A DNA stretch of 64,000 nucleotides from Larkinella terrae (GTDB lineage Bacteria; Bacteroidota; Bacteroidia; Cytophagales; Spirosomataceae), in contig NZ_WJXZ01000013.1 of the NCBI RefSeq assembly GCF_009668025.1, positions 248,001 through 312,000 on the forward strand, read 5' to 3'. Below, piece by piece: positions 1-64,000 of the stretch; the first letter of the stretch is position 1, and each line of letters starts with the position of its first letter. Position numbers and translations under genes: made by a program. The notes beneath the pieces were generated by a model. The model had not been told where the DNA came from. It saw only the letters and a program-made list of their open reading frames with translations, and made no database searches.

Positions 1-2
1 AC

Positions 3-359
3 CAGGCTCCGACGGATACCGTTCAGAATCAGGCCGGTTTTTTACTGGATGAATGGAATGAGCTGATTCCGACCGACAAGGAAACGACGGGCGTTACCTT
101 CCACTTCAATCGGCCGAATGCCACTCCCCCGCAAGCCATCCTGATTGCCGTAGCACCGGTTTTAAACGGAAAATGGACCTGGCTTGAACTGGAGAACATT
201 CTGACTGACACACTCAACCGCTCCAAACTCCGCGCCATCGAACCCGATATGCTGACCGATACCGACTATTTTCAGGTCCTTCCGGCGGTTCTCAATGATT
301 TTTCAACCGGCGGTATTTCGACGGTTTTTACGAATGGCAGTACGCTGGCAACCAGTTAA
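3..359 (+). CDS. C-terminal part of an unrecognised protein (5' end outside window)
   Basis: An open frame enters from the left edge and stops with TAA at 357-359, giving 118 residues of the C-terminus; the start is outside the window. The visible part holds an acidic segment around LLDEWNELIP, then 'GVTFHFNRPNATPPQ' and a helix-rich stretch 'LRAIEPDML'. No membrane segment or export signal is visible in this part. The next gene begins 14 bp downstream in the same direction, so the two are probably co-transcribed. I cannot name the family. From memory, unverified, I have seen similar text in proteins of Actinobacteria next to relatives of the following gene, which would make this a two-gene module spread across phyla. 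Coding status is well supported by codon pattern; function is unknown. Confidence 0.7.
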   Translation, partial: QAPTDTVQNQAGFLLDEWNELIPTDKETTGVTFHFNRPNATPPQAILIAVAPVLNGKWTWLELENILTDTLNRSKLRAIEPDMLTDTDYFQVLPAVLNDFSTGGISTVFTNGSTLATS

Positions 360-373
360 ACCCCTGACTTCCA

Positions 374-2116
374 ATGCCTGAATTTGATAAACTGAAATCG
401 TTGTTCCTCCAGTTACCACTATTCCAACCCACTATCAAAGGCTGGAACCGGCTGGAAGGTCGCCCGCGCAACCGGGATTTTGAACGGAGTTTACGCGCCG
501 AAGTTCGAGACCCGCTCTGGATGCTGACCCGGCAGTGGCAGTTTGGCGAGTTTCAAGGCGAAGACGCCGGTTCGCCGGTCGACGCCCGCATGCTGACGTA
601 CCAGACGTATCTGAATCGCTACGCCGTTGGCAGTCAACCTGCCCAGAAATTCGAGACGAACATTCCGCTCGAAGCCCGGGTGGAACGCGAATTCTGGCCG
701 GAAGATTTGGGTAGCCAGGTACGCATCGGGCGGTATTTTGAAAAGCTGCTGCGAATTCATGCCCTGCCGTATAAAGACAACTACCTCACTCAGTACGTCA
801 TCGACGCCAGCGCGCCCAATCCGGTTTACGATAAGGACACGGATCAAACGCGGGCAGCGGTTGCCGGAAAAGTCATCAACGGTGTACTGTTGCAAAAAGC
901 CATCGCCGACGGTTCGCACGCAATTTGGGTGGATGCGCTTCCCCAGCTTGCCGATTCGGACCGGACGAAACTGAAAACGACCGCGTCGGAACTCGTTCTC
1001 TGGGCCGGAGCATTCGCAACCCAGCCGACTTCCACAGCCGATAATGCGTGGTCGGGAACACACCTGGAATTTCAGTTTGCCTGCGCGACGGACGATGCCG
1101 ACGGCACCCAAATCGTTCTGCGCGCCGATCAGTATGACTCGGGCCATCTGGATTGGTATTCATTCGACGTAGACGCAAATGGCAAACTCGAAGGGGCGGT
1201 TTCGGAGCCTGAACAACCGCTGGAAGAATGCCTTTCGTTTATCCCGGCACCGGTTTCGTTCAACGGCATGCCGCAGCCCCGGTTCTGGCAAATGGAAAAC
1301 GGACGCATCGAATTTTCGAATATCGACGCCAATACGACCGACCTCATTAAACTGATTATGACCGAGTTCATGCTGCTGTACGGCAACGATTGGTGCGTTT
1401 TTCCCTACGAGCGAAAAACCGGTTCACTCTGCGAAATCCGCGGACTGGTCATTACCGACGTGTTCGGCCAGCGAACGTTCGTAAAACCGGCGGGTTCCGG
1501 CATCGACGACGACTGGACGCGCTGGAGTTTCTTTTCCCTCAGCACCAACGCCCCAACCGCCAACACGGCTTCCTTTTTACCGCCCGCACTGGGCAAAACC
1601 CTTGAAAGTCAGCCGCTTGAGAAAGTAAATTTCATCCGCGACGAAATGTCCAATATGGTCTGGGGAATCGAATCCATCGTACCAACAGAACTGGGTCGGG
1701 GCGTGAATGGGTACGAATCGGCGCTGGCGGCCGAAAACGCAACCCGTCCTCCGGAACCGGAGCTGCAACCAACCGAAGCCAAAATCCGGTATGTGCTGGG
1801 TACCACCGTTCCTTACAACTGGATCCCGTTCCTTCCTGCGCAGTTGCCGGGCAGTAACCGCGACATCCGGTTGCAGCGCGCCCGTATGCCCGACCTGGCC
1901 GCGTCGTTCAAAGGCAGGATTCTCGACGAGCCCGCGCCCTATTTCGTGAATGAAGAGGAAGTTCCGCGTTCGGGGAAAAGCGTCATCCGAACGTATCAAC
2001 TCACCCGAACGAAGGACGGAAAACCGGTGCTCTGGATTGGCCGGCAAGCCCTGATCAGCAAAGGCGAAGGCCGTAGCTGGCTAGCGTTTGATCAGATTGT
2101 GGACAATGCCATCTAA
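374..2116 (+). CDS. Unrecognised 580-residue protein, partner of the preceding gene
   Basis: Full-length frame with ATG 14 bp after the preceding stop. It has no signal peptide and no hydrophobic helix, so a cytoplasmic or assembly-associated protein is likely. Conspicuous motifs are a Trp/Gln-rich block near residues 47-66 ('DPLWMLTRQWQFGEFQGEDA'), a Cys/Trp segment near 340 ('GNDWCVFPYER'), and a C-terminal part with 'PYNWIPFLPAQLP' and 'EEEVPRSG'. The density of Trp, Pro and charged residues suggests a multidomain beta-rich protein. I do not recognise the function and assign none. It is followed directly by a 37-bp-stem inverted repeat that begins at the last base of the stop codon, so the operon probably ends here. 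Confidence 0.8.
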   Translation: MPEFDKLKSLFLQLPLFQPTIKGWNRLEGRPRNRDFERSLRAEVRDPLWMLTRQWQFGEFQGEDAGSPVDARMLTYQTYLNRYAVGSQPAQKFETNIPLEARVEREFWPEDLGSQVRIGRYFEKLLRIHALPYKDNYLTQYVIDASAPNPVYDKDTDQTRAAVAGKVINGVLLQKAIADGSHAIWVDALPQLADSDRTKLKTTASELVLWAGAFATQPTSTADNAWSGTHLEFQFACATDDADGTQIVLRADQYDSGHLDWYSFDVDANGKLEGAVSEPEQPLEECLSFIPAPVSFNGMPQPRFWQMENGRIEFSNIDANTTDLIKLIMTEFMLLYGNDWCVFPYERKTGSLCEIRGLVITDVFGQRTFVKPAGSGIDDDWTRWSFFSLSTNAPTANTASFLPPALGKTLESQPLEKVNFIRDEMSNMVWGIESIVPTELGRGVNGYESALAAENATRPPEPELQPTEAKIRYVLGTTVPYNWIPFLPAQLPGSNRDIRLQRARMPDLAASFKGRILDEPAPYFVNEEEVPRSGKSVIRTYQLTRTKDGKPVLWIGRQALISKGEGRSWLAFDQIVDNAI

Positions 2117-2204
2117 TGATAAATGTAAAATGTTGAATGTCTAATGGAAAAGTGTTTTCCAATCCGGCACTTTTCCATTTGACATTCAACATTTTACATT
2201 TATC
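2116..2204. terminator. Long inverted repeat after the unknown two-gene module
   Basis: Arms at 2118-2154 and 2168-2204 are 37 nt long and match except at one position (CTA against CAA); the loop is 13 nt. The arms are A/T rich and built from 'AAATGTAAAATGTTGAATG'. The structure starts at the stop codon and could terminate or stabilise the upstream transcript, and also that of the convergent susD gene. Confidence 0.6.
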
Positions 2205-2225
2205 GTTATCATCCTTTAATTTAAC

Positions 2226-9448: not shown

Positions 9449-9537
9449 TAGTTCTAATTAACTGATTACATCCCAATGAGTTAACTATAAATGCTAAACC
9501 AAAAACCGGTTTTTCTAACAATCCGAACGGAACAACT

Positions 9538-11241
9538 ATGAATCTGAATATCGATGCCGTGAAAGACATGACCTACGACGCCATTGTGATTGGGTCGGGG
9601 GTTAGTGGCGGATGGGCGGCTAAAGAACTGACAGAAAAGGGCTTGCGGGTATTGATGCTCGAACGGGGCCGGCCGCTGGAGCATGTGACGGGATACACCG
9701 AAGCAATGAAAGCGCCCTGGGAAATGCCGGAAAATGTAAGGTTGGGCGATCTGGCCGCCAAATATTCCCAAACCCCGCTGGGTTCCGCCTTAACCGTTCC
9801 GACCTATTGGATGCCCGGACAGGAGACTTCCTACCGGCAGGACAAACCGTTTCGGTGGCTGCGGCCGTCGATTGTGGGCGGTAAATCCATCATGTGGGGA
9901 AGGCAGTCGTACCGGTTTAGCGACATTGATTTTGAAGCCAACGCCAAAGAGGGCATCGGTGTCGACTGGCCCATTCGTTACAAAGACATCGCTCCCTGGT
10001 ATTCATACGTCGAAAAAATTGCGGGCGTTTCGGGCGAAAAGCTGGGTTTACCGCAGCTTCCCGACAGCGAATTTCTTCCACCGATGGATATGTACCTGGT
10101 AGAAAAAGAAGTTCGGAAGCGAATTGAGAAAAATTTTCCGGGTCGCATCATGACCATCGGCCGGACCGCCAATTTGTCGGTTGCGCAAAAAGTGCATGTC
10201 GAATCGGGTCGCACAGCTTGCCAGTACCGGAATCAGTGCATTCGGGGATGTCCGTACGGAGGGTATTTCAGTACGCAATCCTGCACGTTGCCGCCCGCCG
10301 TCAAAACCGGTCGGCTGACGCTCCGGCCCCATTCCGTGGTGACGGAAATCATTTACGACGCTCAAAAACAGCGGGCATCCGGCGTCCGGATCATCGATGC
10401 GGAGACGCTGGAAAACCGGGAATACTTTGCCAAAATTGTTTTTGTCTGCGCCAGCGCGATGGCCTCTACGGCCCTGCTCATGAATTCGGTATCCGACCGG
10501 TTTCCGAATGGCATGGGCAACGATTCGGGTCAGTTGGGGCATAACCTGATGGATCACCACTTCCGGATCGGTGCCACGGGCCAGTGGGAAGGCGGGCAGG
10601 ATCGGTATTACTACGGGCGTCGGGCCAACGGTATTTACATTCCGAGGTACCGCAACATTGGAGTCGACAAGCGGGAATATTTACGCGGTTTTGGGTACCA
10701 GGGCGGAGGTGGCCGGCAGGGCTGGCAGCATCAGGTAGCCGAACTGTCTTTTGGCCCTTCGCTGAAAGAAGAACTGACCAAACCGGGACTCTGGCACATG
10801 GGCCTGACCGGTTTTGGCGAGCAACTGCCCGAATTTAAAAACCGCATGTATCTGGACAAAAGTAAACCGGATAAATGGGGCATGCCAATGCTGGCCTTTG
10901 ATGCCGAAATCGGCGAGAACGAGAAGAAAATGCGGGTCGATATGATGAACGACGCGCAGGAAATGCTCGAGAAAGCCGGTTTGATCAATGTCAAACCCTA
11001 CGATCAGGGCTCGGTTCTGGGTCAGGCGGTCCACGAAATGGGAACCGCCCGCATGGGCCGCGACCCGAAAACGTCCGTTCTCAACGGCAACAACCAGATT
11101 CACGCGGTCAAAAACGTGTTCGTGACCGACGGTGCCTGCATGACCTCCTCGGCCTGCGTCAACCCGTCGCTGACCTACATGGCCCTCTCCGCCCGAGCCG
11201 CCGATTTCGCCGTCCGGGAATTGAAAGCCCGGCGGGTGTGA
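9538..11241 (+). CDS. GMC-family FAD oxidoreductase (gluconate 2-dehydrogenase alpha-like)
   Basis: 567 residues. The N-terminal Rossmann motif for FAD is at about 13-45 (YDAIVIGSGVSGGWAAKEL). A Cys-rich segment near 225-245 ('CQYRNQCIRGCPYGG') resembles the iron-sulfur or structural cysteine patch of gluconate and fructose dehydrogenase alpha subunits. The C-terminal GMC domain has 'HEMGTARMG' and a 'CVNPSLTYMALSARAADFA' end typical of the family. It probably oxidises a sugar, polyol or sugar acid in the periplasm and passes electrons onward. There is no classical Sec signal; export with the Tat-tagged small subunit is the usual arrangement. The preceding subunit-3-like gene supports the assignment. 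Exact substrate unknown. Confidence 0.93.
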   Translation: MNLNIDAVKDMTYDAIVIGSGVSGGWAAKELTEKGLRVLMLERGRPLEHVTGYTEAMKAPWEMPENVRLGDLAAKYSQTPLGSALTVPTYWMPGQETSYRQDKPFRWLRPSIVGGKSIMWGRQSYRFSDIDFEANAKEGIGVDWPIRYKDIAPWYSYVEKIAGVSGEKLGLPQLPDSEFLPPMDMYLVEKEVRKRIEKNFPGRIMTIGRTANLSVAQKVHVESGRTACQYRNQCIRGCPYGGYFSTQSCTLPPAVKTGRLTLRPHSVVTEIIYDAQKQRASGVRIIDAETLENREYFAKIVFVCASAMASTALLMNSVSDRFPNGMGNDSGQLGHNLMDHHFRIGATGQWEGGQDRYYYGRRANGIYIPRYRNIGVDKREYLRGFGYQGGGGRQGWQHQVAELSFGPSLKEELTKPGLWHMGLTGFGEQLPEFKNRMYLDKSKPDKWGMPMLAFDAEIGENEKKMRVDMMNDAQEMLEKAGLINVKPYDQGSVLGQAVHEMGTARMGRDPKTSVLNGNNQIHAVKNVFVTDGACMTSSACVNPSLTYMALSARAADFAVRELKARRV

Positions 11242-11364
11242 TGGTTTTTATCTGATTGTTGAACTGTGGGTGCTCAGCTTGTTTCACAGCTATATCCACG
11301 TAGGTATGCCGTGAAATGCGGTTTCGGCGGTTTGGAATGTAGGACAATCGATGCTGATTCTCAA

Positions 11365-11568
11365 TCACGAATCTGTATCATCCAATTGAAATAAAACTTC
11401 GACGGTAGTATTGAAAACTTTGGCCATCCGCAAGGCTAGTACGGTGGATGGAATAAACTTCCCGGTTTCAATCGAATTTAATCCCTGTCGGGATATCCCA
11501 ATATGTTTTGCAAGGTCGGCCTGAGTCCAGTTTTTCTTTGCCCGTTCCACCTTAATTGTGTTTTTCAT
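11365..11568 (-). CDS. Small XRE-family HTH transcriptional regulator
   Basis: 67 residues starting MKNTIKVERAKKNWTQ at ATG 11568; the frame is open to 11673, but the extension overlaps and duplicates the preceding gene's coding DNA. The protein is almost only a Cro/CI helix-turn-helix: 'TQADLAKHIGISRQGLNSIE' then 'GKFIPSTVLALRMAKVFNTTVEVLFQ'. Its ATG overlaps the stop of the upstream membrane-protein gene by four bases (ATGA), which means translational coupling. Such one-domain regulators paired with a small membrane protein usually repress their own operon. A perfect 16-bp inverted repeat in the operon leader is the obvious operator candidate. Confidence 0.92.
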   Translation of the reverse strand: MKNTIKVERAKKNWTQADLAKHIGISRQGLNSIETGKFIPSTVLALRMAKVFNTTVEVLFQLDDTDS

Positions 11569-11960
11569 ACGCCATACTTTTTTCTCGAAATGAACCAGCC
11601 AATAAAATAAAAGATCCAGCAATACCCCAACAGATACCCATAGCCAAACCAGGTGGAATTCGAAATACCACACAGGCTAAGCAAAAACAATAGCGTGATC
11701 AGCATGGCGGTCAACGAAAAACCGATCACGACGGCTTCCAGTTGCACCCGTTGCTTCACTTCGTCCATTACCGAGAAGGCTTTGATTAACTTGTAAATAA
11801 AAATGGCGAACGTAATAATTGGGATGACCGTAATCATTACCGAAACCGGCTGGCTGAGTACCCGGTGTTTTAATAGCCATACGGTCGGCAAATAAGTGGC
11901 TCCATATAGGAGGGCGAAGGTTATGGAGTGTTGGTTTACCGTTTTAGCAGATTGTTCCAT
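11565..11960 (-). CDS. Small integral membrane protein, coupled to the XRE regulator
   Basis: 131 residues with about four membrane helices (near 12-30, 38-58, 72-95 and 100-122: e.g. SVMITVIPIITFAIFIYKL, VVIGFSLTAMLITLLFLLSL) and a basic end 'ISRKKYGV'. No enzyme motif is visible. It overlaps the next gene by ATGA, so the two proteins are made together. This operon type, small membrane protein plus XRE repressor, is common in Bacteroidota and Firmicutes; the membrane protein's role is not known to me. Confidence 0.85.
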   Translation of the reverse strand: MEQSAKTVNQHSITFALLYGATYLPTVWLLKHRVLSQPVSVMITVIPIITFAIFIYKLIKAFSVMDEVKQRVQLEAVVIGFSLTAMLITLLFLLSLCGISNSTWFGYGYLLGYCWIFYFIGWFISRKKYGV

Positions 11961-11997
11961 CTTTTTAGTTATCTAGCACGCTACAAAGATAAGCAAG

Positions 11998-12035
11998 CCT
12001 TTCTTTTTGTCAAGTTTTGTTGACAAAAAGAAAGG
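11998..12035. promoter_or_regulatory. Perfect 16-bp inverted repeat, likely operator of the membrane protein/XRE operon
   Basis: Arms CCTTTCTTTTTGTCAA (11998-12013) and TTGACAAAAAGAAAGG (12020-12035) are exactly complementary around GTTTTG. A further half-site, GTCAACCTTTCTG, follows at 12043-12055. The site lies 37 bp upstream of the membrane-protein ATG (11960, minus strand). A palindrome of this size at a promoter fits a dimeric HTH protein such as the XRE regulator it would control. Confidence 0.7.
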
Positions 12036-12234
12036 AATATTAGTCAACCTTTCTGAATAATCAATCAATTCGGATTTACGTATTGGTCAGTAAAGGTGTG
12101 TTCTCAACCGACTTCGGGCATCCCACCGGTTGTGTATGAAAATCGAAGGGAAGGTGTTTTCGCCCCGGGCTGACGGTTTACTTTTCGGCCTGGTAGTTTA
12201 TCCATTTTGAGCGCTTTTGGTATAAAAATATCAT

Positions 12235-13623
12235 GTGATGATAAGCTACAAAGCAGTCCTGATTAGTGTGGGAATGGGCCTTTCGTTGCCGGTTCTGGGC
12301 CAAACGGCCGAGGTCATGGTCGACTTTGCGGCCCGGCAAGGCCCCATGCGCATGGAGAAAATGGCTCTGGGACAGGGCGGGCTTTCGGAGGAACCCATGC
12401 TGGCTAACCGGGTGACGGAAATTCGCGCCCTTCACCCCGGCATGATCCGGTTGTTCGTCAGCGAATACTACGATCTTCTCCCCAAGGCAGGAACCTATCA
12501 TTTCAAAACGCTGGACAGCATGGTTTCGTCCATTCTCCAAACCGGGGCCAAACCGCTGATGGCTCTGTGCATGAAACCCAAGGTTCTTTTTCCCAAAATT
12601 GATCAGGATATCGTTGAGCCGACCGATTACAAACAATGGGAACAACTCGTTTACACTGTGGTCAAACATTACCGGGACCGGAAAGCGGGCATTCGTTATT
12701 GGGAGGTCGGCAACGAGGTCGATATCGGCGAAGATGGTGGAACACCGTACCGGTTTAAACCGGAAAGCTACGCCCGGTACTACAAACACACGGTAGCGGC
12801 CATCCTGCGGGCCGATCCAACGGCGCGGGTGGGTGGCCCAGCGCTGGCAGCTTACAACTCCCCCATTCTACCCGGTTTGCTCGAGGCTTGCTCTGCTCAA
12901 AAAATACCCCTGCATTTTGTTTCGTGGCACCATTATAATAATAGTCCGCTGGTTATCCGGAAGCAGATTGAGTATGTTCAAAATCTGGTCAAAAAACACC
13001 CGGATCTGAAACCTGAAACAATCATGGATGAATGGAATGTCGATCTGTTCAATCCAATCCTGGACCCTCGCTATCAACCCTGTTACGTCGCAGAAACCAT
13101 CTGGCAGATGAAAGACGCTGGCCTGGACTGGTCCTGTTATTACCACATCCGCGACTGGTACGTTTCTTACGAAACATTTGCCAAAGTCTTTTCTCCGTCC
13201 GGGACGGCTTTCATGACGCGCTGGTGGAATCGGCAGGCACAGTTCAGCGGGTTGATTGACTACCAAAACCAGCTTCGTCCGGCTTATTTTACGTTTAAAC
13301 TGCTTTCCCGGCTGGCGGGCGAGCGGCTGCAGGTCAGCTCAACCCATGCAAGTGTGCACGGTTTTGCCAGCCAGGATGACAAGCTGCAGATGCACAATAT
13401 GATGCTCTGGAATTTTTCCGATCAACCGGTGGAAGTCAACATTACGTTAACGAATCTTCCCAAGTCCATGCGTACCCGCCACATCGTTCTGGATGCCACC
13501 GGACCGGGTAACGACGAAAATCACCGCCTTCGTCCGGAGCCTTTCAGCCAGCTAAAACCGGGCAATCAAAAACTGACGGTGAGACTTGAACCATGGGCCG
13601 TTCATTACTGGTCGCTGGAATAA
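12235..13623 (+). CDS. Secreted glycoside hydrolase, GH39-like
   Basis: 462 residues with a signal peptide to about residue 22 (cut after LPVLG-QT). The TIM-barrel catalytic layout of clan A glycosidases is visible: 'RYWEVGNEVD' puts the acid/base Glu at 161 after Asn160, and 'ETIMDEWNVD' puts a nucleophile Glu at 266. A His-rich strand 'VSWHHYNN' precedes it, and a beta-sandwich follows (about 375-462). This matches GH39 (beta-xylosidase/iduronidase) best; a related clan-A family is possible. The target is probably a plant polysaccharide side chain. It stands alone in its operon; the first two codons are both ATG, so the start may be 12238. Confidence 0.85.
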   Translation: MMISYKAVLISVGMGLSLPVLGQTAEVMVDFAARQGPMRMEKMALGQGGLSEEPMLANRVTEIRALHPGMIRLFVSEYYDLLPKAGTYHFKTLDSMVSSILQTGAKPLMALCMKPKVLFPKIDQDIVEPTDYKQWEQLVYTVVKHYRDRKAGIRYWEVGNEVDIGEDGGTPYRFKPESYARYYKHTVAAILRADPTARVGGPALAAYNSPILPGLLEACSAQKIPLHFVSWHHYNNSPLVIRKQIEYVQNLVKKHPDLKPETIMDEWNVDLFNPILDPRYQPCYVAETIWQMKDAGLDWSCYYHIRDWYVSYETFAKVFSPSGTAFMTRWWNRQAQFSGLIDYQNQLRPAYFTFKLLSRLAGERLQVSSTHASVHGFASQDDKLQMHNMMLWNFSDQPVEVNITLTNLPKSMRTRHIVLDATGPGNDENHRLRPEPFSQLKPGNQKLTVRLEPWAVHYWSLE

Positions 13624-13842
13624 GATGCTGCGTTTCACAAACCCTGAAAAAGATCAGATTCCTGTCGTTAAACCCGTTACAAAAACAATTTACCATATAC
13701 AGGCTAACGAGGTCAGTATCAATAAACTAATATAAACTTTCGGTACATTTTTCCCGGCCTGGGCTTATATTCTTCGAATGGTTGGTTCCCTTCAGAGCCA
13801 TAGGGAACCTCTCAATTTAGTAAAACAATCGACTTTCGCTCG

Positions 13843-14050
13843 ATCAATCAGGTCGGGTCCAAGTTGACTATTAAAGCTGTTTCAGGGCAGATGCCAATGC
13901 TTTATGAATAAATTACACGGCTTCAGGTGACGGTTTTAAGCAATCCGGTTTCCGATCAGCGTCAGGTCGAGATTCGTGTGGCAAAGGCGTAGATCGATGA
14001 TCTGCGGCTTTCGGGTATAAAGTCGAAACTAATCCGTTTCAGCCGGTTGT
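13843..14050 (+). pseudogene. Decayed remnant of a T9SS-sorted protein tail
   Basis: One frame reads 'GSKLTIKAVSG', then after a TAA 'LQVTVLSNPVSDQRQVEIR' from 13921, then a TAG at 13990 and 'IDDLRLSG'. The 'VLSNPVSD..QVEIR' text is the start of the type IX secretion sorting domain of Spirosomaceae proteins. Two in-frame stops within 70 codons, no start and no upstream frame show it is a relic. The surrounding gap 13624-14104 holds nothing else I can support. Confidence 0.55.
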
Positions 14051-14104
14051 AATTAAGTAACATTCCGCCAAAAAAGACTTTATACTACGAATCAGAACGA
14101 AGCG

Positions 14105-15241
14105 ATGAAGTCATTTTTCCTTTTAATTACCTGTCTGTTTGGCAGTGCTGTTCCCACGATGGGGCAATGTACCGTTTCCAAAGATGCTTACGGTCAGGTA
14201 ATCACGACCTGTCAGGTAGCCAATTTCCCCGCGGAAAACGCACCGCTCAACAAACAGCTCATCTTTTTGGGAAGCGAATTTGCCAGTTTTCCGGTATGGC
14301 AGAGAGGCCGGATTCGCCTGGATCAATCGGGACAGGACCAGGCTTGCCTGATTGCCTATAACCTGGTAAGTAACGAAGTACGGTGCCGGTTTGAAGGTGA
14401 CCCCACCGAAAAGACTGTCTCGCCGTATTCATTCGTAATCAACGGTGTCGAATACGTTCGTCAATTAAAAAAGGTGCTGGGAGTTAATTACACCTTGTAT
14501 ACCACAGTCCTTAACAGTGGGGAAACAAAGCTCTTAAAGAGTTTGAAAGGCCGGTTCGTTAAAATGCCGGTTCGGAACGGTTATGATAAAGACAACCCCT
14601 TCGCTGGCTATTTTCAGGTTGATCAGCAGTATTTTATTCAAAAAGGCGATTCCGCTCCACAACCGATTAGCCTGACCAAAAACGCCCTGTTGACTGCACT
14701 GGAAGAGGAAAGGGAAATTCTTGATGCCAAACTGTCAAAGCGGCAGCTCACTCCCGAAGAAGTGATCGAGGTGGCTGGCCTTTACGATTCGCTGCGGGTA
14801 TTGACGCTGCGTAACTCGACTTCCCTGGCGACTGATGCCGGGTTGAAAGACCTGCTTCGGGCTCACATCAAGTATCCCGTTCAGGCCTGGAATGCCCAGG
14901 TATTTGCTCGCGTATATGTCGGTTTTGACATCACGAAAGCGGGTCAAATAAGCAATATCAAGCTATTAAGCCCGGAAAACGTGGGGTTTGGTTTCGGACA
15001 GGAGGTTACCACGGCCCTGAGCAAATTGCAAGGCACCAAACCGGCGTATGAAGGTCGATATGCTTTACCCGTGAGTTTCATGTATACTGCGGCACGGGAT
15101 AAAGGCCGGGTTTTCATTCCGGTGAATACGCTGCCTGATGACCTTTTACAAGGACGTGTGGTTCTCAACGAGGTTGTGGTTAATCAGGTTATGGGAAAAG
15201 ACCTGGCCAAAAATCGGGAAGTTTGGGGATACTACAAATGA
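14105..15241 (+). CDS. Exported protein with C-terminal TonB_C-like domain
   Basis: 378 residues with a signal peptide (cleaved near MGQ-CTV, residue 20). The first 240 residues match nothing I know. Residues about 258-330 have the TonB C-terminal fold signature: 'FARVYVGFDITKAGQISNIK' then 'GFGFGQEVTTALSKL' and a closing 'YALPVSFMYT' strand. After it comes 'LNEVVVNQVMGK', a stretch reminiscent of TonB-box or plug openings. With a cleavable signal and no membrane anchor this is not a normal TonB; it may be a periplasmic partner. It stands alone; the decayed T9SS tail lies just upstream. Confidence 0.75.
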   Translation: MKSFFLLITCLFGSAVPTMGQCTVSKDAYGQVITTCQVANFPAENAPLNKQLIFLGSEFASFPVWQRGRIRLDQSGQDQACLIAYNLVSNEVRCRFEGDPTEKTVSPYSFVINGVEYVRQLKKVLGVNYTLYTTVLNSGETKLLKSLKGRFVKMPVRNGYDKDNPFAGYFQVDQQYFIQKGDSAPQPISLTKNALLTALEEEREILDAKLSKRQLTPEEVIEVAGLYDSLRVLTLRNSTSLATDAGLKDLLRAHIKYPVQAWNAQVFARVYVGFDITKAGQISNIKLLSPENVGFGFGQEVTTALSKLQGTKPAYEGRYALPVSFMYTAARDKGRVFIPVNTLPDDLLQGRVVLNEVVVNQVMGKDLAKNREVWGYYK

Positions 15242-15399
15242 TACTTCGGGCTGCCAGATCCGACAAACTATCTCGATCGTCTCGACCGGTAAGTCCCGCT
15301 CCAGTCTGATACAATCAATCCGAGTGGGAGCTTTGACGTTGACAAGGTAGACCTTAAAAGCGCTACCGGTCCGGCGAAAAGAGCAACGGCGCGGATAAT

Positions 15400-15654
15400 T
15401 TACCGAACCGAATCCCTGCGGTTTATTTCCGCTTGAATGTCCTTCAGATTTTTAGAATAGCTGGAGCCGATATAAAAAGAAACAATTAGCAAGATTACGG
15501 GAAGGACGAACCCGGTATGCGTGGCCGCATAAACCGCTATGCCAACTAAAAAACCGATGAACAAAACCGTTATAAGTTTTTGTGATTTCATTTTTTTCTC
15601 TTTTGACACTAATTCGTCAAGTGTCATTTGAGAGTAATCTTTATTTGAAAACAT
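15400..15654 (-). CDS. Small two-helix membrane protein
   Basis: 84 residues: an acidic/basic N-terminal helix ('LDELVSKEKKMKSQK'), two membrane helices near 27-44 and 48-66 and a polar coiled end ('KNLKDIQAEINRR'). The pattern recurs in Cytophagales genomes as a short conserved membrane protein. Function unknown to me. It is monocistronic and lies on the opposite strand to both neighbours. Confidence 0.7.
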   Translation of the reverse strand: MFSNKDYSQMTLDELVSKEKKMKSQKLITVLFIGFLVGIAVYAATHTGFVLPVILLIVSFYIGSSYSKNLKDIQAEINRRDSVR

Positions 15655-15823
15655 ACAGATGCCTGTGTTATGAAAATTGGAAGCTCATTTTAGGATTTTG
15701 ATATTCAAAGATATGAAGCCTCAAGCCTAATCGGTAATCAATTATGATTCCGTGATTTTATGTCTCGTTAAACAAGTCTGACACGTACAAAGAAATTTCA
15801 TTTGCAATAAAATGGCAAGTCAT

Positions 15824-15984
15824 AAAGACTGTCTATTAATTTATAATTTTCCTTTTCTACTTTGACCTCAACCCCCTAAAGGCCGGGCGGCCGGTGCCGG
15901 GCTTTAATCGGCATGTAAAAGCTCCCTGCGGGGGTTGGGGGCGGACCGAAGAAAGGGAAAATCTGAATTTTAGACAGTCGCTTA
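15824..15984. repeat. MITE-like palindromic element, copy 2
   Basis: Left end 'AAGACTGTCTATTAATTTAT', right end 'TTTTAGACAGTCGCTTA'. The interior begins 'CAACCCCCTAAAGGC' and ends 'GGGGGTTGGGGGC', with a GGCCGGGCGGCCGGTGCC insertion in the middle. It is the most diverged copy and lies 95 bp upstream of the next gene. The rest of the 15655-16078 gap is A/T rich and holds nothing else I can name. Confidence 0.75.
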
Positions 15985-16078
15985 CTACTATTTCCTTTCC
16001 CCAACCTTGTAAAGCCGTTTCTAGCTATAAGTATAATTGTGAGACATAGTACTTTTTAAAGAATACTTTTCCCTACCA

Positions 16079-19000
16079 ATGCGTTGTTCATTCTTTATCG
16101 GCTGGCTCACTGCCGTTCTCCTTCTTAGCTCAACCCTCCTGACTCATGGACAAACGACAGCCGTACTGACCGGCTATGTAACGGATGCCGTTACGGGAAA
16201 ACCCATGCCGTTTGCCAACGTCTACGTAAATGGATCAACGCGGGGGGCAACCACCGACGAAAAAGGCTTTTATACCTTGGCCGGAGTGCCACTGGGCACG
16301 GTCGAAATAGCCGTTTCCTTCGTTGGCTATCAGCCTATTGCGCAAAAAATTCGATTTGAGAACGCGTCTCCGCAGAAAGTCAATTTTCAGTTGAAAGAAA
16401 GTGAACAGATGCTGGATGCGGTAACCGTGCGGGGCAACCCGAAGGGCTGGGAACGGCACCTGCGCCAGTTTAAAAAAGAAATCCTCGGCGAGCCGTTTGG
16501 CGGACAGTGTGTGTTGGTCAACAGCGAAGTTCTCCATTTCAAAGAGGATAAAGATCATCTGTATGCGACGGCAAACGAACCATTGATAATTGATAACCAG
16601 GCACTTGGCTATCGGCTCATTTACGCGTTACAACATTTTGATGCTTCACCGTCCGGCAATGTTTTTTCGGCAGGAACGGCCCGTTTTGAAGAATTAAAAC
16701 CAGAGAACGAAAGGCAGGCCAACCGGTTTCGGCGTAACCGGCTGCTTGCCTACCAGGGTTCCATCCGACACTTGATGGCCAGTCTGATTGACAATACGTT
16801 CGGGCAGGCCGGTTTTCTGGTTTATCAGGAAGATGCCACGAAGCCGATCTCTCCCGATCGTCGGTCCATTACACTGGCCGCTGCCATTGGTGACTACAAA
16901 CGTCTCATACCTATTCAGGCTGCTAAATTGATTCAACCTGGTCGGTTAGCAACCGAACGCCGATTGGTTTCTCCCTTGAAACTAATTGTATTTTACACGC
17001 ATGGGGTTTCGAATTTCTCACCCTATCCCGATGCCCGTTACGCCTATACGGAAATGAAACTGCCCAGCGGCCAGATGCAACTGTCCGTCAATGGGGTTAT
17101 TACGATGCCGGAAGGGATGGAAGCAAAAGGCTCGATGGGAAATGACCGGCTCTCGACCATGCTGCCCGCCGACTGGAAACCGGAAGGAAACGAGAAAGAA
17201 TCATTGACAACCGGCCTACTGGCTACTCAGGGAAAACTCCTGCCGCCCGACTCCAGCCTGGGCCGGATCACGGCGACTTTCAACGAACGATTCAAGTTGC
17301 AGGCTCCCACCATATTTGTGCACATCGATAAGTCCTTTTACGCTACCGGCGATCGGCTCTGGATGAGTACGTACTTGCTCGACGCGGCTAGTCACCAGCG
17401 CGCCGGTGGCGAAACAGCGCTGCATGTCGACCTGCTCACGACCGCCGGGAAGCTCGTGCAGCACCAGTGGGTACGGATCGTGGACGGACGGGGCCAGGGC
17501 AATTTCCGCCTGTCGGATACGCTCACGACGGGAACGTACCGACTGCGCGCTTATACCGATGAAGATGAGGCCCAGCGACGCCCGGCTTTCGAGCGGTCGG
17601 TGGCTATTTATAATCTGGTTCGGAACGACGTATCAAGCCGTATTGATTCGGTACCTCAGCAGCCGGACATTCAGATTTTGCCGGAAGGCGGTCGCTGGAT
17701 TGCCGGATTGCCAGCGCGTCTGGGCGTCAAAATTGTGCAACCCAATGGGCACAGTTTATCCACCACGGGACGGATTGTGGATGATTCAGGAACGGAAGTA
17801 GTGCGTTTCAAAACCAATCAGCGGGGAATGACCAGCGTGCCGATGGAACCAAAGACACAACGGATGTACTTCGCCGAAGTTATGTATAACAACCAACCCC
17901 AACGCATTCCACTGCCCAAAATCGAAACGGAAGGACTGTTGCTTTCGGCCGACGCGATCAGTGATACAACCCAGTTGGCGTTGACCATCCGAAATGCGAA
18001 CCGGGCCGCTTCCGACTCCGCATATATTCTGATTCTACAACGCGGCCGGGTGGTCGATCAGCGAAAAATTCTTTTACAGAATGGGGTGGCGAAGGTAAGC
18101 CTGCCCATGACGAACTGGTTGCCGGGCCTGGCGCAAATCACTCTTTTTGATGCCACCGCCAGGCCCCAGGCCGAGCGATTAATTTTTGTACCCCAGCTCG
18201 TTGCCCCGGTGCGGGTACGGATTGGACTCAATAAAAACCGGTATCAGCCCCGCGAGCAGGTCCTACTTGGCGTCAATCTGAGCGATAACGGGGCACCGGC
18301 GGTAGGTGCTTTATCGGCCTCGATTACCGACGCAGGACAGGTGCCTGAGGATTCCGCCGACGCTACTTTGCAGGCCCACTTGCTGTTAACGGGTGAGCTA
18401 CGGGGACATGTCGAAAACCCTAACCAATACGTAGTGAATCCGTCCGCCGAAACCCGCCAGGCTTTGGATGACCTGCTCCTGACCCAGGGCTGGCGAAGGG
18501 TCAGTGGCACGCCCGCTACGGATTCGCTCGGTGGTGTATCGATCAGAGGCCGAATTATGGATGTAAAAAATCAACCCATACCCGGCGCGCAGATTACCGT
18601 GATGTCGACAGGCGTTGGACGGTCGTTTGTAAAATCGGCCGGTACGGATGAACAGGGGCGGTTTCGATTGGCGGGACTGGCCATTTCGGACACCATTCAG
18701 TTAGTAACACAACTCACTGATCGTCAAAGGAAAAACATTTCCTCGAGAGAAGCTTATCTGGTTCAGGAAGGTCCGGGCAGCCAGTGGGAACCGATCAAAA
18801 CGGTCAGTGCGCCAAACTGGTCTACGTTCCGCGCTCAACTGGAAGCGGTCCGAACCCGGCAGGAAGCCAACGCCGATTTCTACCGGGATAAAAAGACGGA
18901 AGTGTTGAACGAAGTAACGGTGCGGGCGCGAAAAACCGAGGGAAGGCCCGAAGATATTCAACAACGTAGTTTGCACAATGAGGCTGATGCCGTTCTGGTG

Positions 19001-19630
19001 TTCAATGAAAAATCACCGGTTTATCCGAATCTTTACGAAATGATTCAGGGACGCTTGGCGGGCGTCACGGTCACGCGGGAAGGGGCCATGCAAGCGCGTA
19101 GCTATAAGGTATTTTTGCGGGGTGTGAACAGTTTCAAAAGTGGTATGCAGCCTCTGTATTTAATGGATGGCCTACCTATTCAGGACCCGGATGGAAACGC
19201 TCTGATGCAATTCAATTCGAGCGATATCGAACGGGTTGAACTGTTGAAAAATGGGGGTAAGACGGGTATGTACGGAGCCCGGGGTGGGAATGGTGTCGTT
19301 GCTTTTTACACCAAAAGATCACGCTCCATGCAGGGCAGCGCAAAACCGGTATTGGGATTGACTCCCATCCAATTCATCGGTTATCCTTCGGTGCATCGCG
19401 AATTTTACGTGCCTCGCTATGATTCCGAAGCACCGACCGGCAGTCCTTCCGGCCCCGTCGATAACCGGGACGTATTGTACTGGAAACCGCTGATGCAAAC
19501 CGACGGTCAGGGGCAAAGCCAGGTTCGTTTTCCGCTATCGGATGTCGTCCGAACAATACGCGTGGTGATACAAGGCATTACGGCCAATGGTCGTCCGGTG
19601 ATGGGCGTTCAGTTGGTTCGGGTTCAATAA
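16079..19630 (+). CDS. Macroglobulin-like/TonB-plug hybrid surface protein
   Basis: 1183 residues with a signal peptide to about 24. Order of domains: carboxypeptidase-regulatory-like sandwich 27-105; a region with DUF5686-like text 'SEVLHFKEDKD' to about 350; an MG2-like macroglobulin domain about 400-495 ('PTIFVHIDKSFYATGDRLWM', 'GTYRLRAYTDED'); further beta domains; a second regulatory-like sandwich about 820-890; a TonB-plug-like domain 967-1080 ('MIQGRLAGVTV', 'PLYLMDGLPIQ', 'DIERVELLKNG'); and a macroglobulin-like end (about 1127-1183, 'VLYWKPLMQTDGQGQSQVRF'). There is no beta-barrel, so this is not a transporter despite the plug. The family is widespread in Bacteroidota and uncharacterised; an envelope docking role is inference. 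Confidence 0.85.
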   Translation: MRCSFFIGWLTAVLLLSSTLLTHGQTTAVLTGYVTDAVTGKPMPFANVYVNGSTRGATTDEKGFYTLAGVPLGTVEIAVSFVGYQPIAQKIRFENASPQKVNFQLKESEQMLDAVTVRGNPKGWERHLRQFKKEILGEPFGGQCVLVNSEVLHFKEDKDHLYATANEPLIIDNQALGYRLIYALQHFDASPSGNVFSAGTARFEELKPENERQANRFRRNRLLAYQGSIRHLMASLIDNTFGQAGFLVYQEDATKPISPDRRSITLAAAIGDYKRLIPIQAAKLIQPGRLATERRLVSPLKLIVFYTHGVSNFSPYPDARYAYTEMKLPSGQMQLSVNGVITMPEGMEAKGSMGNDRLSTMLPADWKPEGNEKESLTTGLLATQGKLLPPDSSLGRITATFNERFKLQAPTIFVHIDKSFYATGDRLWMSTYLLDAASHQRAGGETALHVDLLTTAGKLVQHQWVRIVDGRGQGNFRLSDTLTTGTYRLRAYTDEDEAQRRPAFERSVAIYNLVRNDVSSRIDSVPQQPDIQILPEGGRWIAGLPARLGVKIVQPNGHSLSTTGRIVDDSGTEVVRFKTNQRGMTSVPMEPKTQRMYFAEVMYNNQPQRIPLPKIETEGLLLSADAISDTTQLALTIRNANRAASDSAYILILQRGRVVDQRKILLQNGVAKVSLPMTNWLPGLAQITLFDATARPQAERLIFVPQLVAPVRVRIGLNKNRYQPREQVLLGVNLSDNGAPAVGALSASITDAGQVPEDSADATLQAHLLLTGELRGHVENPNQYVVNPSAETRQALDDLLLTQGWRRVSGTPATDSLGGVSIRGRIMDVKNQPIPGAQITVMSTGVGRSFVKSAGTDEQGRFRLAGLAISDTIQLVTQLTDRQRKNISSREAYLVQEGPGSQWEPIKTVSAPNWSTFRAQLEAVRTRQEANADFYRDKKTEVLNEVTVRARKTEGRPEDIQQRSLHNEADAVLVFNEKSPVYPNLYEMIQGRLAGVTVTREGAMQARSYKVFLRGVNSFKSGMQPLYLMDGLPIQDPDGNALMQFNSSDIERVELLKNGGKTGMYGARGGNGVVAFYTKRSRSMQGSAKPVLGLTPIQFIGYPSVHREFYVPRYDSEAPTGSPSGPVDNRDVLYWKPLMQTDGQGQSQVRFPLSDVVRTIRVVIQGITANGRPVMGVQLVRVQ

Positions 19631-19729
19631 CGTTAGCCTGAAGCTAATTACGACGAATCGGGATGGGGTTGTATCATTCATCCGCTTAGCCATGCTCAAC
19701 AAATGCTCTGAAGATGGCAGAGTTGCTGG

Positions 19730-21841: not shown

Positions 21842-22121
21842 GAAAGGGTTTAGAGGGAAGTACAAATAAACACAAAGTTGCCGAAAGTTACAGTGGCAAT
21901 TCGGCAGTAAAACGTTCCTTTCACTGAGGAACCGGTGCGCTCCGTGGGGTATTTTACCGCTGCACGCCCCGAAATTGGTATTTAGGCCAGGCGCAAGCGG
22001 AGAGAAAGAAAATTTTCAATTATTTCTGTCTATTTTCATTCACCTTTTGATAGGTAACTCCATATACCACTGGCAGTTACTTTCCTATCTTCACATCTAT
22101 CCTTCTACCCAACTTTTGGCC

Positions 22122-23804: not shown

Positions 23805-23882
23805 TTGCAATCGCTTCGGTGAATTAAATACAGAATGGGTCGTCTGGATACTGAATTATTTCGCGTTTGGCTCAAAATGGAA

Positions 23883-23922
23883 AATTGGATATTAATGCCA
23901 GCAAATGCATTCATATCCAATT
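23883..23922. terminator. Hairpin between convergent genes
   Basis: Perfect arms AATTGGATAT (23883-23892) and ATATCCAATT (23913-23922) around 20 nt, between the stops of the T9SS protein (+) and the hydrolase (-). Probably a bidirectional terminator; no strong T-tract is seen. Confidence 0.45.
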
Positions 23923-23974
23923 CATCCGAATCGTAAAACGGAAACTGAAACGTTAAAGCCTGATTCTACTTTTC

Positions 23975-24832: not shown

Positions 24833-24873
24833 GGGTCGAAGGTTTAGGTTGAAAGGTACAAAAATGTTGTCGG

Positions 24874-24933: not shown

Positions 24934-24960
24934 CTGAAAACCGTATCCCGAAAACCGCTA

Positions 24961-27523: not shown

Positions 27524-27525
27524 GG

Positions 27526-41402: not shown

Positions 41403-42548
41403 ATGAAATTGCTGTGTACCGTTTCACTACTCCTGCTGTTTTTTTACGATGGATTTTCGCAGTCGAAACCCGTTGCCAAACCGGTGAAGCAACCTATTCA
41501 GGGTGGGTATAAAATCACCGGTTTTCTAAAAAATGCGGCCAACCGGAAGATTTATCTGACGGAAAGTGCCTTCTACAAATCGCGTCAGCAGTCCGACACG
41601 ACGATTGCAAACGCAAAAGGCCAGTTTAGCTTCAATGGAAAACTGGACGAGGCTTCTTTTTTCAGCATCCGGGTCGAAGGCAAAAACAGTCCGCAATATT
41701 TCTTTCTCGAAAATTCGCCCATTACCATCACGGGAAACGCCGATTCGCTTTGGGCCATGAAAGTGACTGGGTCAAAAGAAGAAAACATCCGGCAAAAAGT
41801 GCAGCAAATGATGCTCGATACGGCCATTGGCAACCAGTATAAGCGGGCCGAACTGAAATACACCAACGCGCGGGCTACGAATGATGTCAATGCCATGCAG
41901 GCCGCGGTGAAAGATCGTCAGGAAGTTCTGAATCAGGAGGTTAAGCGGGTTAAAAAAATCATTGGGACGTATTCTACCTCCGCCGTGGGCGTCAATGTGC
42001 TGAGTGTTTTGATTAACATGGGAGACGTTGCCGGAGCCGACAGCCTGTTGACGATCATGGAAGCGAACGAGATCGGAAAAACCCTGCAGGCGAAATTTTT
42101 CCGGCAGCAGATCGACGTAATGAGTCGCCTGAATGTGGGCAAACTCGCCCCGGAATTTGCGCAAACCGATACGCTGGGAAACGTCATCAAACTGTCTTCT
42201 TTCAAAGGGAAATACGTTCTGGTCGATTTCTGGGCCAGCTGGTGCGGGCCGTGCCGGGAGGAGAACCCGAATCTGGTCCAGACTTACAAAACATTCAAGG
42301 ATAAAAATTTTACCATCTTTTCCGTTTCCCTCGACAATAACCGCCAAAACTGGTTAAATGCCATCCGAAAAGACCATTTAACCTGGTCGCACGTGAGTGA
42401 TTTGAAAGGCTGGAAAAACGACGTGGCCCAGCAATACGGCATCAACAGTGTCCCCGCGAATTTGTTGCTGGACCCGACCGGCAAAATCATTGCGCGGAAC
42501 TTACGGGGTGAAGACCTGAGTAAAAAAATTCAGGAGTTGGTTCAGTAA
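41403..42548 (+). CDS. TlpA-like thioredoxin with N-terminal DUF4369
   Basis: 381 residues from ATG 41403 (MKLLCTVSLLLLFFYDGFSQ, signal peptide); the frame begins 13 codons earlier. DUF4369 beta domain about 35-135 ('GYKITGFLKNAANRKIYLTE', 'PITITGNADSLWA'), a helical linker, then the thioredoxin fold with WASWCGPCREE near 285, 'NNRQNWLNAIRKDHLTW' and the cis-Pro 'GINSVPANLLLDP'. It is a periplasmic thiol-disulfide reductase of the ResA/TlpA group. DUF4369 is limited mainly to Bacteroidota and of unknown use. Monocistronic. Confidence 0.93.
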   Translation: MKLLCTVSLLLLFFYDGFSQSKPVAKPVKQPIQGGYKITGFLKNAANRKIYLTESAFYKSRQQSDTTIANAKGQFSFNGKLDEASFFSIRVEGKNSPQYFFLENSPITITGNADSLWAMKVTGSKEENIRQKVQQMMLDTAIGNQYKRAELKYTNARATNDVNAMQAAVKDRQEVLNQEVKRVKKIIGTYSTSAVGVNVLSVLINMGDVAGADSLLTIMEANEIGKTLQAKFFRQQIDVMSRLNVGKLAPEFAQTDTLGNVIKLSSFKGKYVLVDFWASWCGPCREENPNLVQTYKTFKDKNFTIFSVSLDNNRQNWLNAIRKDHLTWSHVSDLKGWKNDVAQQYGINSVPANLLLDPTGKIIARNLRGEDLSKKIQELVQ

Positions 42549-42584
42549 ACCGGGGTACGGTTTTCGGTGTACGGTTTTCGCAGG

Positions 42585-44684: not shown

Positions 44685-45082
44685 GCCGCTGGCCGATCAT
44701 AAAACAGTTTTGCCAGACGGTTCGTTAGTGTGGAGATGAGCGGAGGCTTGGTCAGGAAATCAGAAGCGCCCAGGGCTTTGGTTTCCTGAATATCTTTGGG
44801 TTCGGCCGAAGTAGAATAGATAATGATGGGAATGTGTTCAATGCGGGCTATTTTCTTCAGCTCCATCAGACACTGTTTGCCGTGCATTCGGGGCATATTC
44901 AGGTCCAGAAAAATATAGCGGGGCATAAACGTTTCTTCCTTCCGAAGTTTTTCCAGCGCTTCTCCGCAATCGTCAGCCACTACACAAGTCAGTGTCGGGT
45001 CCACTTTTTTCAAGGCCAGCGTAAACAGCTCCTGATCGTCTTCGTCGTCGTCGATCAGAAAACAAGTGAAGGGTGAGTTCAT
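44681..45082 (-). CDS. Single-domain response regulator
   Basis: 133 residues from ATG 45082 (MNSPFTCFLIDDDEDDQELF). Receiver domain only: acidic pocket Asp11-13, phosphorylation site Asp60 in 'RYIFLDLNMP', Ser/Thr at 'IIIYSTSAEP', and Lys in 'ASDFLTKPP'. Without an output domain it should act by protein contact or phosphotransfer. It is translated just before the PAS kinase with a 4-base overlap, so the two form a two-component pair of the Rcp1-type arrangement. Confidence 0.94.
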   Translation of the reverse strand: MNSPFTCFLIDDDEDDQELFTLALKKVDPTLTCVVADDCGEALEKLRKEETFMPRYIFLDLNMPRMHGKQCLMELKKIARIEHIPIIIYSTSAEPKDIQETKALGASDFLTKPPLISTLTNRLAKLFYDRPAA

Positions 45083-62509: not shown

Positions 62510-62692
62510 TTTGAAATACCACTCCTTCAGACGCGTCAAGGTTCTTTTCTTACCCTTATTCTATTTAATTTCACACTGTATTTTTCGTTCCAGGCTAAAT
62601 AAACCCCGGTTATACGCAAAAAACTAGGATAAAATTTGGATTGGAATTTAAAAATATAGTCTTTTATACAAATTTTTTTCAATCACAATTCA

Positions 62693-62884
62693 ATGCAAAC
62701 AGGAGTAGTAAAATTTTTTAATGAAACCAAAGGATACGGTTTCATTAAACCGGATGCACCAGGTGAGGACATCTTTGTTCATTCAACTGGTCTCGTCGAT
62801 CAAATCCGCGAAAACGACAAAGTTAGATTTGAAGTTGAACGTGGCAAAAAAGGTCTGAACGCTGTAAACGTAGAACTGGTATAA
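62693..62884 (+). CDS. Cold-shock protein (CspA family)
   Basis: 63 residues: single OB fold with RNP1 'KGYGFI' and RNP2 'DIFVH', 'GVVKFFNETKGYGF' start and 'GLNAVNVELV' end. It binds single-stranded RNA/DNA and acts as RNA chaperone. The A/T-rich leader 62510-62692 is 180 bp without any other gene, consistent with the long 5' untranslated regions of csp mRNAs. A strong terminator follows. Monocistronic. Confidence 0.96.
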   Translation: MQTGVVKFFNETKGYGFIKPDAPGEDIFVHSTGLVDQIRENDKVRFEVERGKKGLNAVNVELV

Positions 62885-62916
62885 TCGAAAGATAGAGCCG
62901 TCTTAGTTTCAAGAAG

Positions 62917-62946
62917 AAAACATGCCTCACGGCATGTTTTTTTTTG
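62917..62946 (+). terminator. Rho-independent terminator of the cold-shock gene
   Basis: AAAACATGCC (62917-62926), loop TCAC, GGCATGTTTT (62931-62940) and a run of nine T in total to 62945. It is 33 bp after the stop. Confidence 0.9.
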
Positions 62947-63054
62947 CCCGCTGAATCAGAATCATTTACCGTCGCATTACCGCTTTTCTGGACAGCGTTT
63001 ATTGAAAAACCGGCCTTTCCTGCTTTTTTTGCGGTTTCATTTCGCAAACCAGTC

Positions 63055-64000
63055 ATGAGTTCTTCTTCAGAAACCGGCAGTATTTCTTCGCGTATTGCGG
63101 CCCTGCTTAACCTTTCCGCCCGCCAGGTAGCCAATACCATCAAGCTTCTTGACGAAGGGGCTACTGTTCCTTTTATTGCCCGGTACCGGAAAGAAGCAAC
63201 CGCATCGGCCGACCGCGGTCCACTGGACGAAGTGCAGATTGGTGCAGTCAAAGACACGTACCAAAGACTCCTTGAGCTGGACAAACGCCGGGAAACCATC
63301 CTGAAATCCATTGAGGATCAGGGCAAACTGACTTCCGAGCTTCGGCAAAAAATCGAATCGTCCGACTCCTTAACCGAACTGGAAGACTTATATCTGCCCT
63401 ACAAACCCAAGCGAAAAACCCGCGCAACGATCGCCATCGAAAAAGGGCTGGAACCGCTGGCTAAACTGATCTTTAGTCAACGGGAAAATACCGTCGAGCG
63501 AAAAGCCGCGATTTACCTGAACGACCAGGTTCCGACGGTTTCGGATGCTTTGCAGGGCGCGCGCGACATCATGGCCGAATGGATTAGCGAAGACGCCGAC
63601 GCCCGTCAGCGAATCCGGAATCTCTTTGAACGTGAGGCCATTATCAAGTCGACGGTCAGGAAAGACAAGGAAACGGCGGGCGTTAAGTACAAGGACTATT
63701 TCAGTTTTGCCGAACCGCTCCGCCGGGTTCCCTCCCACCGCCTGCTGGCGATTCGTCGCGGGGAAGCCGAAGGAATTCTTTCGGTCAGTATTTCGCCGGA
63801 TGAAGAAGCGGCCCTGCAACGGCTGGACCGCCAGTTTTTGCGGTACGGTTCGTCGGAAAGTATCGACCAGGTGGCCATTGCGATCAAAGACAGTTACAAA
63901 CGGCTGATCAAACCGTCGATCGAAACCGAGTTTGACAACGCGTCGAAGCAAAAAGCCGATCAGGAAGCCATCAAAATTTTTGCCGACAATCTCCGTCAGT
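63055..64000 (+). CDS. tex: Tex-family transcription accessory protein (3' end outside window)
   Basis: ATG at 63055; 315 codons to the window edge without stop. The translated start 'MSSSSETGSISSRIAALLNL' leads into the Tex N-terminal region: 'TVPFIARYRKEATASADRGP', 'ELDKRRETILKSIEDQGKLT', 'LTELEDLYLPYKPKRKTRAT' and 'AIEKGLEPLAKLIF'. Full Tex proteins are 700-770 residues, with YqgF-like and S1 domains expected beyond the edge. It binds nucleic acids and affects transcription; no specific target is known here. Confidence 0.93.
   Translation, partial: MSSSSETGSISSRIAALLNLSARQVANTIKLLDEGATVPFIARYRKEATASADRGPLDEVQIGAVKDTYQRLLELDKRRETILKSIEDQGKLTSELRQKIESSDSLTELEDLYLPYKPKRKTRATIAIEKGLEPLAKLIFSQRENTVERKAAIYLNDQVPTVSDALQGARDIMAEWISEDADARQRIRNLFEREAIIKSTVRKDKETAGVKYKDYFSFAEPLRRVPSHRLLAIRRGEAEGILSVSISPDEEAALQRLDRQFLRYGSSESIDQVAIAIKDSYKRLIKPSIETEFDNASKQKADQEAIKIFADNLRQ

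Follow-up and report, generated by a model that had tools for sequence, protein, structure and literature searches.

Abundance of AAAACCG in the window and in the genome

The stretch considered here, 64 kb of the Larkinella terrae genome (hereafter the window, meaning the whole of the DNA analysed), carries 46 genes as called by a greedy longest-open-reading-frame (ORF) rule and not by a trained gene finder. Dispersed over these genes and the gaps between them are 160 copies of the heptamer AAAACCG, counted together with its complement CGGTTTT, where a dinucleotide model expects 25.8 (Table 1). The excess extends to the whole genome (7,846,626 bp, 22 contigs), which holds 9,069 copies of AAAACCG and 9,385 of CGGTTTT, being 18,454 in total (2.35/kb). 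The reversed word, an imperfect control in that some of the 393 other genomes of a phylum sample reach ratios of up to ~6.6 at low density, occurs 1,444 and 1,465 times on the two strands (2,909 in total). Exact copies are 6.9 times as frequent as the reversed word and one-mismatch forms 1.5 times. The word is non-palindromic, occurs on both strands and is abundant inside genes and in gaps; its sequence logo shows the seven-base core followed by a weak tail, C/G and then T/C, with T scarce directly before the core. Genome-wide, the iteration level corresponds to hundreds to thousands of copies per Mb, as is asked of a highly iterated palindrome (HIP).

Table 1 Copies of AAAACCG/CGGTTTT and related features of the window
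Feature	Position	Strand	Copies	Remarks
AAAACCG copies, dispersed	1..64000	81 on +, 79 on -	160	mean 2.5/kb
AAAACCG, example copy	1415..1421	+		within ORF 374-2116
AAAACCGGTTTT, two overlapping copies head to head	9502..9513			between ORF 8567-9196 and ORF 9538-11241
Stretch unaligned to L. rosea DNA	11240..23962		18	1.41/kb; contig C5 run 89239-101962, offset 78000
Densest stretch	24001..28000		20	4 kb; 2-kb bins of 11 and 9
Second cluster	41400..44700		9	

The initial annotation, made from the window alone, had described the heptamer as massively over-represented, with local concentrations in the first 11 kb (where we count 30 copies) and in the second cluster, and as present in genes of either strand, in various frames and in gaps. 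All of this is borne out, and the overlapping pair to which it pointed also exists, being located one base away from the 9501-9512 that it gave. Its statement that the density is above that of known DNA uptake sequences (DUS) is not sustained: Kingella oralis is given 5,918 kingDUS in 2.4 Mb, about 2.5/kb (PMC3630211), and the cyanobacterial word HIP1 300-2,700 copies per Mb in most of its carriers (PMC4390886).

Codon use and intergenic DNA

Such abundance could be a by-product of codon-pair bias, of the amino acids used or of a mutation bias that depends on context, and extreme codon-pair bias was one of the readings of the initial annotation. The called genes of the window contain 134 copies, compared with a mean of 35.5 and a maximum of 50 in 200 synonymous-codon shuffles, and with a mean of 46.4 and a maximum of 60 in 100 shuffles that also preserve the codon-border dinucleotide. 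The counts are thus far above the shuffled range, and they are not restricted to one frame, all six being used (25/12/32 and 7/23/35). In 744 kb of the genome, every frame stands 2.0 to 3.9 times above the stricter codon null, and the intergenic DNA of this sample holds 267 copies, with 41.9 expected.

Coding context does modulate the word. In genes, CGGTTTT (857) is commoner than AAAACCG (710), and strand counts track gene direction (r -0.46, p 0.005). Of the dipeptides encodable by the word, RF (1.28 vs 0.98), NR (1.40 vs 1.15) and KT (1.25 vs 0.99) are more frequent than in Spirosoma, whereas KP is not (1.37 vs 1.44); in the L. soli set used for these dipeptide counts, for the CGCCKC counts given below and for the relatedness and Spirosoma nulls, one 21.7-kb piece is counted twice (L105, inside L159-L162). 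Nonetheless, codon-pair or codon-usage bias is ruled out by the codon shuffles, the intergenic excess and the constraint at fourfold-degenerate sites described next, which goes beyond the codon. Together with interspecies differences of every type, these tests refute the wider explanation by codon or mutation bias, unless a repair enzyme recognises the entire word, and we regard it as most improbable.

Conservation between Larkinella species

Between the species of the window and L. rosea, the Larkinella to which the window's genome is close, the word is preserved at its individual sites where changes would be synonymous. The alignment of the window's contig with this sister genome (G461) covers 151,678 positions, at 85% identity. 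Of 493 fourfold-degenerate sites inside AAAACCG, 46 differ, where 169.1 would be expected after stratification by codon. This corresponds to an odds ratio of 0.17 (z -12.25), to be read beside the 0.39-1.57 of ten control words, nine of them below 1, because the test conditions on the presence of the word in the window's species and so pulls words below 1. Whole words are retained in L. rosea at 269 of 358 coding sites (permuted words, 44%) and at 17 of 37 intergenic ones (permuted words, 29%). Retention is similar across the six frames (70-80%) and on both strands (72% and 73%), and how far away the next copy lies makes no difference (Spearman p 0.86, 395 sites). When only the window is aligned, the fourfold odds ratio is 0.23 with L. 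rosea, 0.57 with L. knui (z -2.25) and 0.57 with L. soli (z -1.87).

Differences from the word in four other Larkinella, pooled and not polarised on a tree, affect every one of the seven positions, and each of the 21 possible base changes is among them, so no single mutation or repair step explains them. A single-base mutation or repair bias of the Vsr type is ruled out on these grounds, that is, on 21 of 21 changes from the same pooled and unpolarised comparisons. Moreover, recovery of the word is asymmetric: words of these four poorer species are recovered in the window's genome at 50-73%, and the reverse comparison gives only 14-41%, which indicates that the word grew commoner on the lineage leading to the window's species, or rarer on the others. 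AAAACCG is maintained as DNA, through selection or biased gain, and its conservation suggests that something in the cell recognises or prefers it. Constraint on silent positions is also a warning that synonymous-site analyses in Larkinella genomes are not neutral.

Distribution in Larkinella, its family and its phylum

The initial annotation had suggested a comparison with Spirosoma and Larkinella genomes. Of 150 genomes sampled from the family, nine are Larkinella (the window's genome included); these carry AAAACCG at 0.78-2.38/kb, and the other 141 at no more than about 0.54/kb. Within the nine, density is higher the closer a genome stands to the species of the window (Spearman 0.94, with the identity of one gene as yardstick). 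The GC content of the genus, from 0.51 to 0.58, may contribute to this gradient; the dinucleotide-corrected ratio also falls across Larkinella, from 6.3-6.6 to 2.9-3.2. AATACCG, a variant with A/T exchanged at one position, is enriched in all nine as well (3,279-5,934 copies, against 411-828 for its reversed form), and we write AAWACCG for both, W being A or T. In Spirosoma (238.7 kb), there is a slight excess at most: 89 copies against 56.6 expected by dinucleotides, made up of 69 coding copies (56.6 by codon shuffle) and 20 intergenic ones (9.0). One further family genome (G436) is mildly raised, with AAAACCG at 0.52/kb (ratio 3.1) and AATACCG at 0.41/kb (ratio 6.3). Among the 393 other genomes of the phylum sample, the top density is 0.77/kb (G006), near that of the poorest Larkinella, and none comes near 2.35/kb. 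The expansion of AAAACCG is thus genus-specific, present in all nine Larkinella and stronger in the closer relatives of the window's species.

A different word is expanded just as strongly in a related genus. Rhabdobacter roseus (G415) has 15,982 copies of AAGTACC and 1,323 of the reversed control, the consensus being AAAGTACCY (Y, C or T). In the DNA sampled from it (L207-L218), every frame exceeds the null, by factors of 1.7 to 10, and the intergenic count is 119 against 5.6, a 21-fold excess. A weaker form of this expansion is carried by G408; in G406, whole-genome counts are 3,554 against 1,201, and the excess over the stricter null in 80 kb is only 1.5 and 1.9 times. We infer that AAAACCG, AATACCG and AAGTACC may be forms of one signal. 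The nine-species gradient, together with the different word in a related genus, offers a natural series for mapping the cause by genome comparison. In the open-access literature, the matches listed include no report of such a word for Larkinella, Rhabdobacter or the family at large, and of four papers that contain one of six spellings of the word itself, none is relevant by title.

Candidate words in other genomes are leads only: ACGTACC (Fibrella and Fibrivirga), ACGTAGC and ACGTATC (two Spirosoma) and AGGTATA (Ohtaekwangia) reach 4- to 6-fold the count of the codon shuffle in ~21.7 kb each (L089, L092, L082, L102 and L132), having been selected and tested on the same DNA. In another genome (G420, L058), there are 9 to 12 copies of ATCATAG and of words overlapping it within 4.7 kb, probably as a local repeat.

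Strand, spacing and acquired DNA

A Chi site of a Larkinella AddAB or RecBCD enzyme would be, like the present word, short, frequent, over-represented and non-palindromic, and seven bases is a plausible size; a Chi-like signal was accordingly one of the suggestions of the initial annotation, which also proposed strand-skew tests. Chi sites are recognised by polarity and core-genome enrichment, and in E. coli they occur once per 5 kb (PMC8022716), so that the Larkinella word is far denser. With respect to GC skew, AAWACCG shows no replication-strand polarity, either in the draft contigs (1,064 and 1,112 copies on the two strands, strand being assigned from local GC skew that is near zero in some stretches) or in a complete Larkinella chromosome (337 and 315). 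In addition, DNA that does not align to L. rosea, used as a stand-in for acquired DNA, is nearly as rich in copies as aligned DNA (2.20 vs 2.62/kb, p 0.07). Chi and other polar motifs were rejected on the strand counts, the suggestion of the initial annotation failing on this point. The Larkinella data speak against Chi, and a Chi function of the word is very unlikely.

An origin of the word in mobile DNA is not supported either, unaligned DNA being only slightly poorer in copies. Ten proteins from two stretches of low density (L015 and L033) were examined with Pfam, and none matched a mobile-element family.

With these two stretches excluded, the gaps between copies are near random (coefficient of variation 0.98) and neither a preferred spacing nor a helical period is seen, for which reason regular spacing and helical phasing were discarded. 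Neighbours less than 10 bp apart are deficient (19 vs 54), density is 2.52/kb in coding and 2.0-3.1/kb in intergenic DNA, and among 20-kb stretches it varies slightly more than a Poisson process would (standard deviation 0.55 vs 0.38). Along the complete chromosome, sampled at 20 places, no trend is evident.

These data bear on whether an abundant protein of the nucleoid, or one that organises the chromosome, binds the word, with selection maintaining thousands of sites. The genome-wide occurrence at similar coding and intergenic density, the constraint on individual sites and the slightly super-Poisson variation would all suit such a protein, and the scarcity of very close neighbours could reflect a footprint, or plain overlap of the words. 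On the other hand, spacing, helical period and chromosomal position show no pattern, and the change of word between genera of one family would not be predicted for a conserved architectural protein. Functions for which even coverage is all that is required predict that crowded copies decay, and crowded copies do not, which disfavours such functions; retention independent of neighbours and near-random gaps are consistent with each copy counting alone. In our estimate a nucleoid protein is an unlikely explanation, yet one to be kept in view.

Which process may favour the word

Few iterated words are known from genomes, and what they do is a matter of dispute: HIP1 lacks an explanation, and DUS and the uptake signal sequences (USS) are tied to natural transformation. 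The finding belongs with these words, membership in none being claimed, and it adds one more case, independent of the others and from a different phylum. By analogy, the Larkinella word appears to behave most like HIP1 or like a DNA-uptake word.

CCGG and GTAC are possible methyltransferase cores. The strongest 8-mer, AAACCGGT (10.8-fold), is centred on CCGG, and the Rhabdobacter word AAGTACC includes GTAC. These observations would fit a mechanism in which the word, or the core of it, is recognised by a DNA methyltransferase, and repair directed by methylation generates and maintains the copies, as proposed by Elhai for HIP1 (PMC4390886). HIP1 (GCGATCGC) and the alternate HIPs resemble the Larkinella word in density (PMC4390886), in being genome-wide and lineage-bound, and in that other words substitute for them in some relatives. 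However, HIP1 is palindromic, whereas the half word AAAACCG suffices in Larkinella: copies without a following G are nearly as enriched (AAAACCGC, 7.6-fold), and beside AAAACCGG (8.5-fold) there is also AAAACCGT (6.2-fold). Also, the ratchet of the HIP1 model halts at about one site per kb (PMC4390886), whereas AAAACCG exceeds 2/kb and its retention does not depend on neighbours.

HIP1 is, moreover, tied to orphan methyltransferases, and none of the three methyltransferase families searched in Larkinella is common to all nine genomes. The window's genome and L. knui lack any PF01555 match, and L. rosea has only one, below the cut-off; PF00145 has no match in five of the nine; for PF07669, G490 gives no match and the window's genome a marginal one. 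Each family is therefore missing in one or more of these genomes, other families not having been searched and the methyltransferases found not having been sorted into orthologues. An orphan methyltransferase was set aside within this scope. The Larkinella data thus speak against the HIP1 methyltransferase model, which is weakened, and we consider it improbable.

Two types of process remain, both favouring each copy for itself: a selected binding site, or biased gain as the cell takes up or recombines its own kind of DNA. Biased gain is rated slightly above a binding site because related genera differ in their word and because variants one A/T apart coexist, as in DUS dialects. The reading that we tentatively prefer, while giving it less than an even chance, is that AAWACCG, here mostly AAAACCG with its loose tail of C/G and then T/C, would be a highly iterated recognition word of Larkinella, favoured copy by copy in uptake or recombination. 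A sequence-specific DNA-handling process would favour each copy individually, most likely the recognition of own DNA during uptake or recombination by a putative reader, and alleles with the word would spread by biased gain (molecular drive), as has been proposed for DUS. Of the four readings of the initial annotation, an uptake signal or a chromosome-organising motif may apply, the data agreeing with this class in a general way, and codon-pair bias and Chi do not.

The DUS of Neisseriaceae and the USS of Pasteurellaceae are likewise non-palindromic, occur inside genes too and form lineage dialects. The coexistence of AAAACCG and AATACCG has a parallel in Simonsiella, where simDUS and kingDUS, one A/T apart, stand side by side (PMC3630211). 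The differences are that the Larkinella word has 7 bases and theirs 9-12, that the phylum is another one, and that for the Larkinella word, known from sequence alone, uptake and a receptor are putative.

Several points weigh against a recognition word. The ComEC core domain is present in all 19 genomes examined, relatives that lack the word included, and does not discriminate, and an uptake receptor, a pilus or a role in competence is putative for Larkinella. Seven bases are short for self-recognition, given that unexpanded genomes of the family have 0.14-0.53 copies per kb. An accumulation by degrees, by way of mismatched forms, is inferred in PMC1939737, with which the sharp over-representation of exact over one-mismatch copies contrasts. 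No uptake sequence in Bacteroidota was found in the literature among the matches listed. As for conservation, the fourfold odds ratio of AATACCG against L. rosea (0.57) is inside the range of the control words, and so are those of AAAACCG against L. knui and L. soli, so that constraint is clear only against L. rosea. Between genes the constraint is weaker (divergence 14.9% vs 20.6%, p 0.019) and is surpassed there by that on AAAAGCC, one of the control words (3 of 60 diverged, p 0.0018).

Extended to members of the family, Spirosomataceae, own-DNA recognition would mean lineage-specific iterated words (for Larkinella AAWACCG, for Rhabdobacter AAAGTACCY, and for Fibrella and Fibrivirga perhaps ACGTACC), each marking the cell's own DNA for a fast-changing DNA-binding reader, as uptake or recombination dialects in Bacteroidota. 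This wider proposal is speculative, and we hold it to be rather unlikely.

A companion signal and side observations

The sampled DNA holds a second anomaly, of opposite sign. CGCCKC (CGCCGC and CGCCTC; GMGGCG on the other strand) is nearly absent, with 3 copies against 1,462 expected in 900 kb of the genome; the sole copies of CGCCGC in these 900 kb are L023:10237 and L032:11453. The deficit of CGCCGC is present in all coding frames. No CGCCKC occurs in 320 kb of L. rosea (459 expected) or in the Spirosoma pool (333 expected), and in Rhabdobacter its frequency is normal. Whole-genome counts, made for CGCCGC (CGCCTC being counted in sampled DNA only), are 7-121 in the nine Larkinella, 5-174 in 17 genomes of the Spirosoma group (g3), 1-94 in four of the Rudanella group (g174) and 11-12 in two of a further group (g187); the other 118 genomes of the family sample have from 103 to more than 11,000 copies. 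This avoidance exceeds what we would expect from ordinary restriction-site avoidance. Since it extends to more genera than the expansion of AAAACCG, the two signals are probably separate.

In Larkinella sp. C7 (L071), GTATAC is over-represented 9.7-fold in the 21.7 kb sampled. Finally, an intergenic sequence of 106 bp in the window (46967-47072) has long inverted arms and resembles a dispersed hairpin repeat, and similar stretches of ~100 bp occur elsewhere in L. knui and L. arboricola DNA.

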